DNA of 64,000 nucleotides from Acidobacteriota bacterium (GTDB taxonomy: Bacteria > Acidobacteriota > Terriglobia > UBA7540): the NCBI GenBank assembly GCA_902812465.1, contig CADDZE010000002.1, positions 1 to 64,000 on the forward strand, written 5' to 3'. Below are positions 29,140 to 36,610 of the stretch, piece after piece; position 1 is the first letter of the stretch, and every line of letters starts with the position of its first letter. The position numbers were made by a program, and so were the translations under genes. The notes beneath the pieces were generated by a model. That model was not told the DNA's origin. It did no database searches and saw only the letters and a list, made by a program, of their open reading frames with translations.

Positions 29140-29547
29140 GTGGGGAACAAGCGGCTTAAATTCGGGATCGGAATCGGCATCATCCTGGTTGTCGTTGCCT
29201 GGGAAGCGATCACTGGCTTTCAGCAGAGTAAAACATACTACGTGACGGTAAGGGAGTTGCTCAGCGGCAAAGCAGCCCGACACCGGGTGCGGGTGGGAGG
29301 GGTGGTCGCCCCGGGATCAATTGACCGGCGCAACGGAATGGTCACGTTCCGCTTGACGCAAGATTCCGATTCGGTGCCGGTTACCTACGTGGGTACCGAC
29401 CCCCTTCCAGATACCTTCGTGGGCGGAGCCCAGGCGATCGCCGAGGGCGATTATACGGCCGACGGCGTTTTTCGCGCAGATCATATCCAGGCCAAATGCG
29501 CCTCTAAGTATCAAGCGGCGCCTCCGTCACCCGGGAAGAAGGGTTAG
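29140..29547 (+). CDS. ccmE: CcmE haem chaperone, Cys-type variant
   Basis: A 135-residue periplasmic haem chaperone anchored by one N-terminal segment (LKFGIGIGIILVVVAWEAI). The OB-fold domain has the usual YYVTVRELL and HRVRVGGVVAPGSI strands and ends with ADHIQAKCASKY. Classic CcmE binds haem covalently through a His in an HxxxY motif; here the equivalent is Cys120-xxx-Tyr124. This is the CxxxY type known from other bacteria and archaea. The start is GTG at 29140, with GAGGT upstream. It receives haem from CcmABCD and passes it to CcmF/H. It leads a co-directional block reaching 36610. Confidence 0.92.
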   Translation: MGNKRLKFGIGIGIILVVVAWEAITGFQQSKTYYVTVRELLSGKAARHRVRVGGVVAPGSIDRRNGMVTFRLTQDSDSVPVTYVGTDPLPDTFVGGAQAIAEGDYTADGVFRADHIQAKCASKYQAAPPSPGKKG

Positions 29548-29630: not shown

Positions 29631-31643
29631 ATGAACCAGCTAGGTAGCATCGGCCTGATTGCTGGCTTTGCCTTTGCCCTCTACGGCTCAGTGGCGGGAG
29701 CTGTAGGAGGAAAGCTGCGCAGCCTACGGGTTACGCGGAGCGCAGAGCGGGCGGTATTAGCCTTTACGGTGATGATCACGGTAGCCGTCGCGGCACTCGA
29801 ATACCTGATCCTCACTGACGATTTTCACGGCGCCTACGTGGCCTCGCACTCGAACCGCGACCTTCCACTTTATTACAAAATTCCCGTACTCTGGGCAGGC
29901 CAGGAAGGGTCGCTGCTTTTTTGGACCTGGCTGCTTTCCCTTTACAGTGCTCTGGTAGTGTGGCTGAACCGCAAGAAGAACCGACAGCTGATGCCTTACG
30001 TCGTGGCTGTGCTGATGGGCACCGGCGTCTTTTTTTCCTTGGTCACCCTCCTGGCGGCTAACCCGTTTTCTGAGTTGTCGCTAGCGAATGGGGCCGCGTT
30101 CCGCCCGCCGGATGGCAACGGTCTGAACCCCGCGCTGCAGTATCCCTCCATGGTCATCCATCCACCGATGCTCTACCTCGGTTATGTGGGTATGGTGGTG
30201 CCCTACGCGTTCGCTATGGCGGCGCTGCTGACCAGACAGCTGGGCGACCACTGGATTCGTGCTACCCGCCGCTGGACCATCGTCCCCTGGATGTTCCTCG
30301 GATTCGGCATTTGCCTGGGCGGCCATTGGGCTTACGACGTCCTCGGCTGGGGCGGTTATTGGGCCTGGGATCCGGTTGAGAACGCCTCGCTGCTGCCCTG
30401 GCTGGCGGGTACCGCGTTCCTGCATTCGGTTTTGGTACAGGAAAAACGCGGCATGCTCAAGGTGTGGAACATCGCGCTGGTGATGACCACGTTCTTTTTG
30501 AGCATCTTCGGCACATTCCTGACGCGCAGCGGCATTGTCAGCTCCGTGCACGCCTTCGCGCAGTCGAGCATTGGTCCGTACTTTGCGATATTTTTGGCCA
30601 TCATCGTCTTCTTCTCGCTCACGCTCCTGTTCCTACGCCTCGATGCCCTGAAGAGCGAGAACCGCCTGGACTCGGTTATCTCCCGCGAGAGCGGCTTCCT
30701 CTTCAATAACTGGGTGCTGATGGCGGCCGTGTTCGCCGTGCTGTGGGGAACAGTGTTCCCCATTATTTCGAAGGCCGTCGAGAACCAGACGGTGACGGTT
30801 GGCGCATCCTTCTACAACAAGACCACGGTGCCGATGGGCCTGCTGTTGCTCTTTCTCACCGGCGCGGGGCCGCTGCTGGCCTGGCGCAAGACCTCGTTTC
30901 AAAGCCTGAAGCGAAATTTTGCCGTGCCGCTCGCTGCAGCCGGTGTGGTTGGCATCACTCTGTTCTTTGCCGGAATCCGAAACCTTTACGCCTGGATGAG
31001 CTTATTCCTCAGCGCCTTCGTAGCCACCTGTGTACTCAGCGAGTTCTACCGTGGCGCCCGCACGCGGCAAAAGTTTTGCCGCGAAAGCTTTATCTGGGCT
31101 CTTTACAACCTGACGATGCGCAACACCCGGCGCTATGGTGGCTATATCGTGCATCTGGGCCTTGTCCTGTTATTCGTGGGTTTTTCCGGCCTGGCCTTTA
31201 AGAGCGAAGGCAAGGCTTTGATGCAGGAGGGCGACCTGCTGCGCGTGAAGAATTACTTGTTGCGTTGCGAGAGCCTGACCTCCGGCGACACGCCGAACTA
31301 CACTTATTTGCGCGCTAGCCTCTCCGTCTTAAAGGATGGGCGCGCGCTGGGCACGGTTGAGCCAGAGCGGCGCTTCTATAAGGCCAGCCAGCAACCCATC
31401 ACCCACGTTGCCTTGCGCAGCTCGCTCGCCGAAGACCTCTACACGGTGCTGGCAGGCCAGGACCCCGAGTCGGGCAAAGCGGTGATTCAGGTCTTCGTGA
31501 ATCCGCTGGTGGCCTGGGTATGGCTGGGTGGTATCGTGATGCTGTTGGGCACGCTGCTCGTGCTGGTGCCGAGCCGCGTGGACCGGGAGATGGATTTGCT
31601 CCAGGCGCAGCCGCAAGCGGCTGAGGAAACACAGTGGCTGTGA
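29631..31643 (+). CDS. ccmF: CcmF haem lyase subunit
   Basis: A 670-residue polytopic inner-membrane protein with the tryptophan-rich WWD-type motif in WGGYWAWDPVENASLLPWLA. The conserved haem-handling His residues lie in nearby loops (HPPMLYLGYVG, HSVLVQEKRG). About 14-15 hydrophobic segments can be counted, which fits the family length of 640-680. The periplasmic C-terminal part (about 540-640) precedes a last membrane segment (VAWVWLGGIVMLLGTLLVL). CcmF ligates haem from CcmE to the CxxCH cysteines of apocytochromes. It follows ccmE by 83 bp; its last 10 bases overlap the next frame. Confidence 0.96.
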   Translation: MNQLGSIGLIAGFAFALYGSVAGAVGGKLRSLRVTRSAERAVLAFTVMITVAVAALEYLILTDDFHGAYVASHSNRDLPLYYKIPVLWAGQEGSLLFWTWLLSLYSALVVWLNRKKNRQLMPYVVAVLMGTGVFFSLVTLLAANPFSELSLANGAAFRPPDGNGLNPALQYPSMVIHPPMLYLGYVGMVVPYAFAMAALLTRQLGDHWIRATRRWTIVPWMFLGFGICLGGHWAYDVLGWGGYWAWDPVENASLLPWLAGTAFLHSVLVQEKRGMLKVWNIALVMTTFFLSIFGTFLTRSGIVSSVHAFAQSSIGPYFAIFLAIIVFFSLTLLFLRLDALKSENRLDSVISRESGFLFNNWVLMAAVFAVLWGTVFPIISKAVENQTVTVGASFYNKTTVPMGLLLLFLTGAGPLLAWRKTSFQSLKRNFAVPLAAAGVVGITLFFAGIRNLYAWMSLFLSAFVATCVLSEFYRGARTRQKFCRESFIWALYNLTMRNTRRYGGYIVHLGLVLLFVGFSGLAFKSEGKALMQEGDLLRVKNYLLRCESLTSGDTPNYTYLRASLSVLKDGRALGTVEPERRFYKASQQPITHVALRSSLAEDLYTVLAGQDPESGKAVIQVFVNPLVAWVWLGGIVMLLGTLLVLVPSRVDREMDLLQAQPQAAEETQWL

Positions 31644-32293
31644 GGGCGATCTGGCGATCTAACAAGCTGCGGCGTCACTCCGGGAGCGATGCCGCTTGGA
31701 AAGCTGGAGGCCAGGGACGGCCACTTCAACTTCCTGCCTTCGAAACCGCCGTTCCCCCCGCGAACGGGGCGCAACACCCCCAGGATTTGTTTCACGCCAG
31801 AGCCAAAGCCGTTGAGGCATGGTTCGCTGTCTGCCTCGTGGTCGCTTCCGCACCGGGGCGCCTCTTCTCAGGTCATGATGCGGGTCTGCGCGCCAGACCG
31901 AGCCTCGAATCCGTCGGCGATAAGGTTTACTGTCTGTGTGGTTGCGTTACCACGCTCAACCGATGTCCGCACCTGCCCTCCGAGTGCTGGAGCCGCAGAC
32001 AGACGGAAGAGGCCATTCGCACCGACATCGCCCAAGGCAAAGATGAAGCGGCCATCCTGCAGGATCTCATGCAGCGTTATGGCGTGCAGGTGCTGGCGGC
32101 GCCGCCGGTCAAGGGGTTCGATCTAGCAGCGTGGCTGCTGCCTGGTTTCGGGCTGGTAATAGGCTTGATTCTTGTCGTATGGGTCGTGCGACGCTGGCAC
32201 CACCCAGCGGGCCGTCCGCCCGAGCCGCCCGTCGCAGTCGATCCCAAGCTAATGATGGCGATCGAAGAGGAGATGAAAACACTGGAGGATTGA
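31634..32293 (+). CDS. ccmH: CcmH-type apocytochrome thiol-reductase subunit
   Basis: The recognised part is the second half: SVGDKVYCLCGCVTTLNRC, three helices with EEAIRTDIAQGKDEAAILQDLMQRYG, then one membrane segment (AAWLLPGFGLVIGLILVVWVV). That is the CcmH layout; the family's LRCxxC site appears as CxCxC, as in other Acidobacteria-like members. A GTG at 31634 with GAGGA ahead overlaps ccmF by 10 bases and gives 219 residues. The first 95 residues look unlike a normal signal peptide, so the true start may be internal or the 5' part may carry an error. It presents reduced haem-site cysteines to CcmF. Confidence 0.8.
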   Translation: MAVRAIWRSNKLRRHSGSDAAWKAGGQGRPLQLPAFETAVPPANGAQHPQDLFHARAKAVEAWFAVCLVVASAPGRLFSGHDAGLRARPSLESVGDKVYCLCGCVTTLNRCPHLPSECWSRRQTEEAIRTDIAQGKDEAAILQDLMQRYGVQVLAAPPVKGFDLAAWLLPGFGLVIGLILVVWVVRRWHHPAGRPPEPPVAVDPKLMMAIEEEMKTLED

Positions 32294-32372: not shown

Positions 32373-32819
32373 ATGCCCGTAGTTATTGCCCTTCTTATTA
32401 CTGCGTCGCTGCTGGTGTTTGTGGCGTACCCCCTGCTGGCAGGGGAAGAAGCATCGGCACACCTGAGCACGCTGCCGGTGGACGTTACGCCGCAGGTGGA
32501 TTTGAAGAATCGCCGTTTGGTACTTTACGAGAACATGCGCGACCTCGAGTTCGAGTACCAGGCTGGCAAGATCGCCCAGGAGGATTATGAAGCGCTCCGC
32601 GAGGAATACACCGCCCATGCAGCCCGCTTAATGGCTGCCTCCCAAGGGCTGTTGCGAACCAGTCCGGAGGATGCACTCATCGAGCAGGAGGTGGCGCGGC
32701 GGCGTAACCGGCGGCGCCAGGCGACAACTGACTACGTCTGCCCCAAGTGTGGCTACGAGAATCCGCTGCCCGTCAAGTTCTGTGGCGAGTGCGGACAGAA
32801 ATTGAAAAGCCGCAGTTAG
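32373..32819 (+). CDS. CcmI-like membrane protein with zinc ribbon
   Basis: 148 residues. An N-terminal membrane helix (VVIALLITASLLVFVAYPLL) precedes a helical hairpin, ENMRDLEFEYQAGKI then EDYEALREEYTAHAARL, that matches the short cytoplasmic region after the first helix of CcmI. It lacks the TPR domain of full CcmI. The C-terminus is a zinc ribbon (CPKCGYENPLPVKFCGECG). CcmI holds apocytochrome for CcmF/H; a shortened form in this cluster suggests a scaffolding role. Its neighbour at 32895-34160 carries a similar hairpin (DLDELFAAGKIAERHYWRER). Confidence 0.75.
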   Translation: MPVVIALLITASLLVFVAYPLLAGEEASAHLSTLPVDVTPQVDLKNRRLVLYENMRDLEFEYQAGKIAQEDYEALREEYTAHAARLMAASQGLLRTSPEDALIEQEVARRRNRRRQATTDYVCPKCGYENPLPVKFCGECGQKLKSRS

Positions 32820-32894
32820 ATTGTGAAGGCTGAAGCAGCGAGCTCGGCGAAGCCGCCTTCTTCCCTGATGCTTTATAGTTCTGCGTGACCCAAG

Positions 32895-34160
32895 ATGAAT
32901 GCGACCTCCCATCCTGGGATGCGTGCCTTTCTGGCCATCGTGGTGTCCGTGTTGGTCCAGCCTCAGGCGTATGCTCAGGCGCGCATTCACGGGCAAGTGG
33001 TGAATGGAACCAGGCGCCAGCCGGTGGCCGGCCAGGAAGTGCGGCTGCTTCAGCCACGGGGCGGCATGCAGCAAGTCGGCGTTACCACCACGGACGCTAA
33101 AGGCCGGTTCGAGTTCAGCCAGGTGCCGGCGGATCCGAGTTCCTTTTATCTCGCTTCGACCGTCTTTGCCGGTGTTCCCTACAACGCGCCCGTACAGTTT
33201 GACTCTTCCGGCCAGGCAGGCGCGGACCTGACCGTTTACGATGCCACCCATTCCCCGCTGGCCCTGCGCGTGAAGGTGCTGCGCGTGCTCGCCCTGGCGC
33301 ACGGATCGAGAGTGAGGGTGCGCGAAGAATACGAAGTCGAAAACGCGAGCCGGCCGCCACGCGCCTATTCTCAGGCTGGGGGAACCTTCCACTTTCGCCT
33401 GCCCGCTGGCGTAAACCAGCCGAGCGTGGCGGTGACGGGCTTGATGAACATGCCGCTGCCTCAGGACGCCGAGGCCGACCAGCGAGGCTTTTTCATCCGC
33501 TATCCGCTGAAGCCGGGCACGACCGAAGTGGCCATCCAGTATGAGTCCGACTACAATCCCTCAGGCTACCGGTGGACCAGCGGCACCGACTACCCCATCG
33601 ACCGCGTCGAGTTCTACTTGTCACCCCCCACGCTCCGTGTGGATTCGCCCGACCTCAAGCCAGCGGGCAAGGACGATGCTCACCAGATCGTGAAGTACGA
33701 AGCTGGAGCCATTCCGGCCGGTGCGGAGCTCGTGGCGCGGCTCAGCGGTGAAGCCGCACCCCCGGCCGCCGGCGAGCCCTCGGACGAAGGCGGAAGCGAC
33801 AATGGGGAGGGCCAGGATACAGTGAAAGTGGTCCCCGACGCCATGACGCGCCTCCGCTGGCCGCTCGCTGGTTGCTTCCTGCTGGTACTCTTATGGGCAC
33901 TCGGCGTGCGCGTTGCTAAGGAATGGCCGCAACGCGCCGCGGCCCGCCCTACCGCCCAGGTTCAGCAGCAACTGCAAGCCAAGGCAGAAAAGCTGCTCAA
34001 CTCCCTGGCCGACCTCGACGAGCTCTTCGCCGCTGGCAAGATCGCTGAACGGCACTATTGGAGGGAGCGTCTGGAGCTGAAGGCCAAGCTGGTGGCGCTG
34101 CTAAAGAAGAGCCCGCCCGCGCTGCTCGAGTCTTATGCCTCGCGAAGCCAGCCCCGCTGA
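32895..34160 (+). CDS. Exported carboxypeptidase-regulatory-like protein of the ccm cluster
   Basis: 421 residues. A signal peptide (MRAFLAIVVSVLVQPQAYA within the first 28 residues) is followed by a carboxypeptidase-regulatory-like beta domain (RIHGQVVNGTRRQPVAGQEV to STVFAGVPYNAPVQF) and further beta strands. A membrane segment near residues 318-336 (WPLAGCFLLVLLWALGV) ends the periplasmic part. The cytoplasmic tail carries LADLDELFAAGKIAERHY, like the CcmI-type hairpin of the preceding protein. The frame overlaps ccmA by 26 bases, so translation is coupled. Not a known Ccm subunit; a role in haem or apocytochrome handling is inferred from position only. Confidence 0.75.
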   Translation: MNATSHPGMRAFLAIVVSVLVQPQAYAQARIHGQVVNGTRRQPVAGQEVRLLQPRGGMQQVGVTTTDAKGRFEFSQVPADPSSFYLASTVFAGVPYNAPVQFDSSGQAGADLTVYDATHSPLALRVKVLRVLALAHGSRVRVREEYEVENASRPPRAYSQAGGTFHFRLPAGVNQPSVAVTGLMNMPLPQDAEADQRGFFIRYPLKPGTTEVAIQYESDYNPSGYRWTSGTDYPIDRVEFYLSPPTLRVDSPDLKPAGKDDAHQIVKYEAGAIPAGAELVARLSGEAAPPAAGEPSDEGGSDNGEGQDTVKVVPDAMTRLRWPLAGCFLLVLLWALGVRVAKEWPQRAAARPTAQVQQQLQAKAEKLLNSLADLDELFAAGKIAERHYWRERLELKAKLVALLKKSPPALLESYASRSQPR

Positions 34161-34863
34161 GCACGCGCTCGAAGCCCGCCATATCTCCAAGTACTTCGGC
34201 GACCACGTAGCGCTTAGAAACATCTCTTTGCGGGTGGCTGGGGGCGACTGCGTGTTGCTCTACGGTCCGAACGGCGCGGGCAAAACCACTTTGTTGCGCG
34301 TCCTGGCGTCTTTGGCGCGTCCAGACCGGGGAGAGGTTCTGCTGGACGGGAAGAAGGTGCGGCACGACGCCTCCTCGAAGTTCGAAATCGGCTTTGTCTC
34401 TCACGCGTCGCTGCTCTACGGTGACTTGACCGTTCGCGAAAATCTGCGGTTTACCGCTCACCTCTTCGGCCTGCGCCACGCCGAGGCCAGGATCAACGAG
34501 GCGCTCGATCTGTTTGCCGTGCGCGATCGCCAAGCCCAGCTGGTGCGGAGTTTGTCGCGCGGCTTGCAGCAGCGCGTCACGCTCGCTCGCGCCTTGCTCC
34601 ACCGGCCTCGCTTTCTGCTGTTGGATGAGCCCTTCACCGGCCTGGACGCGGCATCAGCCGAAAGCCTGACCAGCCGGCTACAACACTGGACGGACAAGGG
34701 CATCATCTTCTCCACTCATAGCTTCGAGCAGGGAGCGGCGATCGCCCGCCGGCTCGTGGTCCTCGAAGGGGGACGGCTGCGCTACGATGGCCCGTTCCGG
34801 CACGCCCCGCTGGCGGCGCTCGGCATCAGGCCGTCGACCGAGGCGCGGGGCAGTAAGCTGTGA
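34135..34863 (+). CDS. ccmA: CcmA, haem exporter ATP-binding subunit
   Basis: A 242-residue ABC ATPase with Walker A GPNGAGKTT, signature LSRGLQQRVTLARALL, Walker B FLLLDEP and a downstream switch His (STHSF). The short N-terminal half EARHISKYFGDHVALRNISLRV is typical of CcmA. With CcmB and CcmC/D it drives release of holo-CcmE from the CcmC complex. It overlaps the upstream gene by 26 bp and is followed 81 bp later by ccmB. Cytoplasmic face of the inner membrane. Confidence 0.95.
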   Translation: MPREASPAEHALEARHISKYFGDHVALRNISLRVAGGDCVLLYGPNGAGKTTLLRVLASLARPDRGEVLLDGKKVRHDASSKFEIGFVSHASLLYGDLTVRENLRFTAHLFGLRHAEARINEALDLFAVRDRQAQLVRSLSRGLQQRVTLARALLHRPRFLLLDEPFTGLDAASAESLTSRLQHWTDKGIIFSTHSFEQGAAIARRLVVLEGGRLRYDGPFRHAPLAALGIRPSTEARGSKL

Positions 34864-34944: not shown

Positions 34945-35613
34945 GTGAACGTTATCTGGACGATGTTCGTGAAGGACCTGCGCGTCGAGTGGCGCAACCG
35001 CGAGACGCTGGCACTGATGTGTGTCTTCGGGCTGCTGGTGGTTTTCTTGTTCAACTTTACGCTGGAAACCGGGCGCGAAGAGGCTCTGCGCGGCCTGCCC
35101 GCACTCCTTTGGGTGGACTTCGCATTCGTAGGCATTTTGGGTTTCAACCGTTCCTTTGCCGCCGAGCGTGAGAACGCGTGCCTCGAAGGCCTGATGCTGG
35201 CCCCCGTCGACCCGGGCCTCCTTTATCTCGGCAAGATGCTGTCCAACCTGGTGTTCCTGGGAGTGGCGGAAGGGATCGTGGTGTTTGCCGCCTCGCTTTG
35301 GTATAACTTTTCCTTCTTGCCAGCTTTCCGCAGCTTCTTCTGGATCGCTTTTCTCGGCACGGTGGGGTACGTGGCTGTGGGAACGGTGTTCGGCGCGATT
35401 GCGGCTAATACTCGGATGCGGGAGGTGATGCTGCCCGTGCTGCAATTCCCGGTGGCCGTGCCGGTCCTGATCGGAGGCATCGAGGCCACCGGCGGGGCGC
35501 TGCGCGGCGACGCTCCAAGCTCCTACGCCTGGGCGGTAAGGCTGCTTGTGGCGTTCGACGTCGCTTTTATTGTTCTGTCGTACTTGCTATTTGAGTATGT
35601 GTTGGAGGAGTAG
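34945..35613 (+). CDS. ccmB: CcmB, haem exporter membrane subunit
   Basis: 222 residues with six hydrophobic segments, beginning VIWTMFVKDLRVEWRNRE, the usual ABC-2-type start of CcmB. The conserved cytoplasmic stretch FNRSFAAERENACLEGLMLAPVD is present, and later helices include LVFLGVAEGIVVFAASLW and AVGTVFGAIAANTRM. The start is GTG at 34945; an in-frame ATG follows six codons later. It pairs with CcmA as the membrane part of the CcmAB transporter. Confidence 0.93.
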   Translation: MNVIWTMFVKDLRVEWRNRETLALMCVFGLLVVFLFNFTLETGREEALRGLPALLWVDFAFVGILGFNRSFAAERENACLEGLMLAPVDPGLLYLGKMLSNLVFLGVAEGIVVFAASLWYNFSFLPAFRSFFWIAFLGTVGYVAVGTVFGAIAANTRMREVMLPVLQFPVAVPVLIGGIEATGGALRGDAPSSYAWAVRLLVAFDVAFIVLSYLLFEYVLEE

Positions 35614-35716: not shown

Positions 35717-36400
35717 ATGCCGAAGCTCTCACCCACACTGCATCTGGCTATCTGCACCGCTTGGACCGTGGCAGCGCTGTACATGATTTTTCTCTACGCT
35801 CCAACGGAGCTCACCATGGGCGAGGTGCAGCGCATCTTCTATATCCACGTCTCGACGGCCATCACCGCACTGCTCGCTTATATTCTGGTCTTCCTGTGCA
35901 GCATAGTATTCTTGTGGAGGAGGTCGCCGGCTGCCGATGAACTGGCCCACGCGGCCGCCGAAGTTGGCTTCGTCTTTTGCAGTTGTGTTCTGGTCACGGG
36001 ACCGCTGTGGGCTAAATCCGTGTGGGGCATCTGGTGGACGTGGGATGCGCGGCTGACGTCAACGTTTGTTCTCTGGCTGCTCTTCATTGCTTACCTGATG
36101 CTGCGCAGCTACCTGCTTGATCCGGCCCGTGCCGCCGTGCTGGCCGCGGTGGTGGGAATCGCCGGAGGCGTAGACGCTCTGTTCGATTACATGGCCATCC
36201 GCTGGTTCCGCACGCAGCACCCCCAGCCGGTGATTCTGGGTGGGCCGAATGCGGGACTGGACCCCCGCATGGGCTGGACTCTTCTACTGACCTGGGGCGC
36301 TTTCGTCTGTTTATTTCTCTATCTGCTGCGGCTGCGGGTGGCGCTGGCGCGCTCACGCCGCGAGGCCGTTGCGGTGCGCCGGGAGGAACTGACACCGTAG
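35717..36400 (+). CDS. ccmC: CcmC, haem handling protein
   Basis: 227 residues and about six membrane segments. The WWD-type haem motif is present as WGIWWTWDARLTSTFVLWLL. Conserved His residues are found in FYIHVSTAI and the last loop (DYMAIRWFRTQHPQPVI). These are the haem ligands used to load CcmE. Start ATG at 35717. It comes between ccmB and ccmD, the usual order, and shares the CcsA/CcmC fold with CcmF. Confidence 0.93.
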   Translation: MPKLSPTLHLAICTAWTVAALYMIFLYAPTELTMGEVQRIFYIHVSTAITALLAYILVFLCSIVFLWRRSPAADELAHAAAEVGFVFCSCVLVTGPLWAKSVWGIWWTWDARLTSTFVLWLLFIAYLMLRSYLLDPARAAVLAAVVGIAGGVDALFDYMAIRWFRTQHPQPVILGGPNAGLDPRMGWTLLLTWGAFVCLFLYLLRLRVALARSRREAVAVRREELTP

Positions 36401-36448: not shown

Positions 36449-36610
36449 GTGGGGAACCGCTTCCTTTTTCTGGCTTATGCCCTCGTGTGGATCATCTTCA
36501 TGCTTTACGCGTGGAACCTGGCCCGGCGTCAGGCACGGCTGAGCAAAGAGATCGAGGAATTGAAAGCGCGGCAGGCGGAGGCAGCCCGCGAAGCGAAGGA
36601 GTCGCGCTAG
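36449..36610 (+). CDS. ccmD: CcmD, short membrane protein of the haem exporter
   Basis: A 53-residue frame begins with GTG at 36449, preceded by AAGGAGAG. It gives one membrane helix (FLFLAYALVWIIFMLYAW) followed by a basic and then charged helical tail (NLARRQARLSKEIEELKAR). Size, topology and position right after ccmC match CcmD, the small subunit that helps release holo-CcmE. It is the last gene of the cluster. CcmD is only weakly conserved, so the call leans on context. Confidence 0.85.
   Translation: MGNRFLFLAYALVWIIFMLYAWNLARRQARLSKEIEELKARQAEAAREAKESR

Follow-up and report, generated by a model that had tools for sequence, protein, structure and literature searches.

Gene organization of the ccm cluster

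The window, by which we mean the entire 64,000-nucleotide stretch of DNA analysed here, comes from a Terriglobia-class acidobacterium and contains a ccm cluster for which Pfam and NCBIfam matches resolve the gene order ccmE-F-H-P0001-P0002-ccmA-B-C, with all genes on the forward (+) strand. The ccmE gene (29140–29547; Pfam CcmE, E = 5.4e-24) is of the Cys type, with the motif KCASKY replacing the haem-binding His, and is followed by ccmF, the haem ligase core (29631–31643; Pfam CcmF_C, E = 9e-65; Cytochrom_C_asm, E = 5.5e-39). The ccmH gene (31634–32293) matches Pfam CcmH in its second half (E = 2e-13), and the family alignment places its true start probably further in. Instead of LRCxxC, the window CcmH has the Cys pattern CLCGC-x6-C-x-H-x4-C, which is seen again, with variation, in relatives. 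Flanked by ccmH and ccmA are two open reading frames, P0001 (32373–32819) and P0002 (32895–34160). The end of P0002 at 34160 overlaps the start of ccmA at 34135 by 26 nt, and ccmA itself (34135–34863; TIGR01189, 142.4 bits with a cut-off of 131.6) is followed by ccmB (34945–35613; Pfam CcmB, E = 5e-28), ccmC (35717–36400; TIGR01191, E = 5e-37; Pfam Cytochrom_C_asm), and a small ORF with a GTG start (36449–36610) that is ccmD-like by sequence and position only, having one transmembrane (TM) helix and then a basic helix. The first-pass annotation of this DNA had placed both proteins between ccmH and ccmA with a 26-base overlap, and the coordinates and the Pfam/NCBIfam neighbours agree with it.

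Because CcmE carries CASKY, in which Cys substitutes for the haem-binding His, we assign the cluster to System I*, the CcmE Cys variant of Desulfovibrio and others, for which the absence of CcmG and the dispensability of CcmI have been described (PMC3601427). The window resembles this system in the C-x-S-K-Y motif of CcmE and in having no CcmG in the cluster, but it differs in keeping a CcmH whose Cys motif is of the C-x-C-G-C type and in adding two hairpin proteins. In every fetched cluster that encodes the short protein and in which CcmE was detected, CcmE has C-x-[ST]-K-Y.

Domain architectures of P0001 and P0002

P0001 is a 148-aa protein with an N-terminal TM helix (residues 2–22), followed by two helices (residues 40–63 and 69–96) that are predicted by AlphaFold to form a hairpin (pLDDT ~93–98). 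This CcmI-type hairpin (residues 40–96; 32490–32660) is matched by the P0001-family hairpin profile (A3), and the C-terminus holds a C-x2-C/C-x2-C zinc ribbon (approximately residues 119–145; 32727–32807; Pfam Zn_Ribbon_1, E = 1.1e-6). Against TIGR03142, the CcmI model, P0001 scores 19.7 bits with positions 4–70 matched, which is below the cut-off of 29.3. The same model is matched by 16 of 28 P0001-family members (E < 0.1), and three short relatives exceed the cut-off (G113, 35.8 bits; G075, 33.3 bits; G149, 32.3 bits), each encoded at a locus in which ccmF is present. A TIGR03142 match of 15.7 bits is also found among small TM-plus-helix ORFs with no relation to ccm (G000:C6).

With the CcmI-1 segment of CcmI/CycH, P0001 shares the N-terminal TM helix and cytoplasmic hairpin, the Gly-[basic/aliphatic]-[IL]-x3-[ED/Q]-[YF] turn within that hairpin, and the gene position after ccmF/ccmH. 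Unlike CcmI/CycH, which has a second TM helix and a periplasmic TPR domain, P0001 has a single TM helix in the AlphaFold model and no TPR match in Pfam (nor does P0002), and it carries a zinc ribbon and falls below the family cut-off. P0001 is thus a CcmI of which only the first half remains (TM1 and the cytoplasmic hairpin), with a zinc ribbon added. A Foldseek search of P0001 against the PDB returned nothing significant.

P0002 (421 aa) begins with a signal peptide, which is followed by a CarboxypepD_reg domain (E = 1.8e-8) and then another beta domain; a TM helix spans approximately residues 321–350 and precedes two C-terminal helices (residues 353–379 and 385–405; AlphaFold). The latter form a second CcmI-type hairpin (residues 353–405; 33951–34109), which matches the A4 profile and, reciprocally, A3. 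The periplasmic part is predicted by AlphaFold to be all-beta, with two domains, and its top Foldseek matches are Ost1/ribophorin I (E = 6e-7) and also M1 aminopeptidase beta domains, in both cases with a low TM-score. Like ribophorin I/Ost1, a subunit of oligosaccharyltransferase, P0002 has exoplasmic beta domains followed by a TM helix and cytoplasmic helices, but with a TM-score of 0.28 and a very large rmsd, this is a loose fold-level likeness for which we claim no sequence relation. CarboxypepD_reg/transthyretin-like proteins (PF13620) match the first beta domain and so cover one domain of P0002, whereas the TM-plus-hairpin tail is a specific feature of the ccm-linked family. The domain content given in the first-pass annotation, a membrane helix with a zinc ribbon in P0001 and a carboxypeptidase-regulatory-like domain in P0002, is borne out by Pfam and AlphaFold.

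Among 33 P0002 relatives, 8 match TIGR03142, and one relative (L161) matches the CcmI profile over the TM helix and hairpin (19.1 bits). In genomes of family f4, the gene in the place of P0002 encodes the TM helix and hairpin alone (~115 aa), and these short proteins score 46–50 bits with a profile that was built excluding the L036 and L050 sequences. This reduction at the same place implies that the hairpin can be the part of P0002 that is kept. Some other relatives retain the beta part and the TM helix and have lost the hairpin.

Specificity of the hairpin likeness

When the TM-plus-hairpin profiles are compared by hhalign, the P0001 and P0002 families align with a probability of 96.5% (E = 9e-10), and a canonical CcmI profile built from six sequences aligns with the P0001 family at 95% (E = 3e-8) and with the P0002 family at 85%. 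Searches of the whole 3.9-Mb genome are reciprocal: the P0001-family hairpin profile recovers P0001 (1.9e-24) and P0002 (8.6e-5), with the next match at 0.115, and the P0002-family hairpin profile recovers P0002 (3.5e-27) and P0001 (7.5e-6), with the next match at 0.17. In a background of 12,438 ORFs taken from 193 loci, the strongest non-family matches to the P0001-hairpin profile are nearly all P0002 relatives or proteins in the same ccm position. Given the reciprocal genome-wide matches and this ORF background, the likeness is specific, and at the level of these profiles, the hairpins of P0001 and P0002 are alike beyond chance. Basic residues come after the TM helix in both proteins, and the topology is consistent. 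The CcmI-like segment that the first-pass annotation had proposed as common to the two proteins is therefore real, but it extends over ~50 residues and also includes the TM helix just before them; the zinc ribbon that accompanies it in P0001 is not universal in the family.

Two-helix hairpins are structurally generic and the pairwise identity here is low, so the likeness, including that to CcmI, could instead be convergent and functionally uninformative, with the hairpin serving as a generic coiled-coil adaptor of the SHOCT kind. Several results lean in this direction: the Foldseek structure search yields only generic hairpins, none of them significant; one P0002 relative has a weak SHOCT match; and the full-length A1 profile gives background matches near E = 1e-5 in many genomes. 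Hairpin-only profiles, however, are specific both ways in the whole genome, with background ORFs scoring lower, and SHOCT is matched by 1 of 33 members as compared with 16 of 28 and 8 of 33 for TIGR03142; neither P0001 nor P0002 matches the SHOCT profile at E ≤ 1. The strict co-occurrence with CcmF described below likewise argues against a generic adaptor, and we consider this explanation quite improbable and largely refuted. A generic coiled motif is the outcome that the first-pass annotation had itself named as contrary to its proposal, and we reject a generic coiled coil on the basis of the hairpin-only searches in both directions across the genome and of the 12,438-ORF background.

Distribution across Acidobacteriota

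We surveyed 396 Acidobacteriota genomes for homologues of P0001 (E ≤ 1e-8) and P0002 (E ≤ 1e-12). CcmF is encoded in every genome with a strong P0001 homologue (150/150) and in every genome with a P0002 homologue (82/82), as compared with 235/396 overall (Fisher p = 8e-48 for co-occurrence of P0001 and CcmF, with relatedness ignored). Named relatives include Terriglobia/Acidobacteriia, Bryobacterales, and gp5/gp13 acidobacterial MAGs. Within the fetched loci, P0001 and P0002 homologues are almost always inside a ccm cluster, and in one fetched set, all phylum-level P0001 loci (20/20) have ccmF/ccmH on one side and ccmA on the other. Many families show the order ccmE-F-(H)-P0001-(P0002)-ccmA-B-C again, and phylum-wide, the P0001 gene holds the place of CcmI after ccmF/ccmH. 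A tblastn search of plasmids with P0001 and a short relative gave no homologue besides zinc ribbons.

The first-pass annotation had suggested looking for both proteins near ccm genes in other genomes, and this linkage recurs across many Acidobacteriota families. The exception is family f7, in which P0001 is unlinked from all ccm genes (L039, L046, and L053) and the P0002 relatives are grouped with ccmA and ccmC, away from both P0001 and ccmF (L069 and L070). The two proteins are also not strict partners: P0001 is kept while P0002 is missing or hairpin-less at L035, L037, L040, L044, and L051 and in families f26, f28, f30, f34, f63, and f68. Because several lineages keep P0001 without P0002 or its hairpin, the pairing is not obligatory. 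In three genomes of family f74 (G238, G377, and G400), a P0002 homologue is encoded on the strand opposite to ccmF, ~2 kb away from it, and there is no strong P0001 homologue.

The zinc ribbon is kept across the window's own P0001 family and is missing from many other families, and on this basis, we regard it as accessory. Its retention in the window's family, together with the unlinking of the gene from ccm in f7, could be taken to mean that P0001 is no substitute for CcmI and has a regulatory or metal-sensing role in the membrane, its zinc ribbon linking ccm activity to another cytoplasmic partner. The families that have lost the ribbon nevertheless keep the TM helix, the hairpin, and the place in the cluster, and a regulatory role of this kind is very unlikely.

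The position of P0002 raises a different alternative, in which P0002 and perhaps P0001 work on the haem-export side, their hairpins docking on CcmA/CcmB/CcmC and aiding the loading of CcmE, with no part in haem ligation. P0002 lies directly before ccmA in relatives and overlaps it by 26 nt in the window, and the f7 arrangement, with P0002 relatives next to ccmA and ccmC and away from P0001 and ccmF, fits such a role. The hairpin itself, however, is common to CcmI, a partner of CcmF/CcmH, and the P0002 homologue of f74 is near ccmF, albeit on the opposite strand. We judge a role restricted to haem export to be unlikely, although it is the alternative to which we give the most weight.

Relation to full-length CcmI and to CcmG

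Full-length CcmI, scoring over 100 bits, is found in only 6 of the 396 genomes. In the three full-CcmI loci that we examined, it belongs to clusters separate from those with the short form, and two of these clusters (L187 and L190) encode CcmG and a His-type CcmE (HDENY). Since the full and short forms occupy separate clusters, the short form appears to take CcmI's place in clusters of the Acidobacteriota type. In keeping with the alternative to full CcmI that the first-pass annotation had proposed, the short protein aligns with TM1 and the hairpin, three relatives pass the CcmI cut-off, and the gene place is kept. One genome (G160) has two ccm clusters (L188 and L189), one with full CcmI and the other of the Acidobacteriota System I* type. 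Our conclusion is that in the System I* cluster, full CcmI has probably been replaced by P0001 and P0002, membrane proteins that both contain the first half of CcmI.

The first-pass annotation also extended the replacement to the missing CcmG. Its expectation that the standard proteins would be absent is correct for full CcmI, which is rare and confined to separate clusters, and for the window's ccm cluster, in which there is no redoxin ORF, but membrane-anchored WCxxC thioredoxins (WCGPC/WCPPC; ResA/TlpA-like) and CcdA are encoded elsewhere in the genome. Apart from the lack of ccmG in the cluster, little suggests that P0002 or P0001 replaces CcmG, whether as a thiol reductant or as an apocytochrome holdase of the CcmG kind. 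The only thing in common with CcmG/DsbE is the expectation that such a function be encoded: CcmG/DsbE have a thioredoxin fold and a CXXC motif, whereas P0001 and P0002 have neither the fold nor a redox CXXC. P0002 has a single cysteine, located in the TM segment, and its family is devoid of CXXC apart from one match in a signal peptide, while the cysteines of P0001 are those of the zinc ribbon, which many relatives have lost. The redox role is refuted because the cysteines are lacking. Given also that System I* lacks CcmG in any case (PMC3601427) and that thioredoxins and CcdA are available elsewhere, we reject the replacement of CcmG, which is the least probable of the readings considered here; there is no need to assume it. 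One ResA/TlpA-like thioredoxin with WCGPC (L056; G000:C91, ~2467) has a C-terminal CDCGC-x6-C-x-H-x4-C motif with the same spacing as that of the window CcmH, and this protein, encoded away from the ccm cluster, may be a CcmG that bears a CcmH-type motif.

Proposed roles of P0001 and P0002

The N-terminal part of CcmI has two TM helices with a cytoplasmic loop (PMC3884852). In Rhodobacter, CcmI-1 is reported to act in haem ligation (Sanders 2007, as cited in PMC7676999) and CcmI-2 to have a role distinct from it (PMC7676999). Against this background, P0001 would be a minimal CcmI, with one out-to-in TM helix leading into a cytoplasmic hairpin that is part of Rhodobacter CcmI-1, and with a zinc ribbon standing where CcmI has its second TM helix and periplasmic TPR domain. 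The C-terminus of P0002 is a second copy of the TM helix and hairpin, joined to two periplasmic beta domains. Both proteins may bind CcmF/CcmH via the TM helix and hairpin and so act as a scaffold for haem ligation, as CcmI-1 is held to do, and their hairpins may also pair with each other on the cytoplasmic side. In lineages that have P0002, its beta domains may take over from the TPR domain by holding or steering apocytochrome, or a Ccm partner, close to CcmF. Neither protein carries out thiol reduction.

Homology and gene position make it most likely that P0001 provides the CcmI-1 function and that P0002, where it occurs, contributes a second docking hairpin with a periplasmic beta domain. 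The best reading of the locus, in which function is inferred, is a variant haem-ligation accessory module made of a short CcmI and a beta-domain partner. More tentative is the full proposal of a phylum-wide, two-protein CcmI substitute within a CcmG-free System I*, in which the TM helix and hairpin are used twice, in one case forming a minimal CcmI and in the other anchoring a periplasmic beta-domain protein that performs the TPR domain's handling of apocytochrome at CcmF/CcmH; we see this as possible but closer to a working model than to an expectation.

In the open-licence papers searched, we found no description of these proteins, and nothing relevant on a CcmI with a zinc ribbon or on CcmI in Acidobacteria. 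The parts are recognizable, and the architecture and its phylum-wide pattern appear to be undescribed. Debate continues over which parts of CcmI are needed and what each is needed for. That numerous lineages within a single phylum have kept the TM helix and hairpin but neither TM2 nor TPR suggests that the core element of CcmI is the cytoplasmic hairpin. For annotation, a name is gained for two families that standard models call "zinc ribbon" and "carboxypeptidase regulatory-like" proteins. The natural variants (the hairpin alone, with a zinc ribbon, or on a beta domain, and the beta domain without a hairpin) amount to ready-made test constructs. At six loci (L163, L165, L169, L171, L172, and L189), the P0001 relatives have two hydrophobic stretches ahead of the hairpin, and CcmF is ~820–850 aa long with CcmH fused at its C-terminus.
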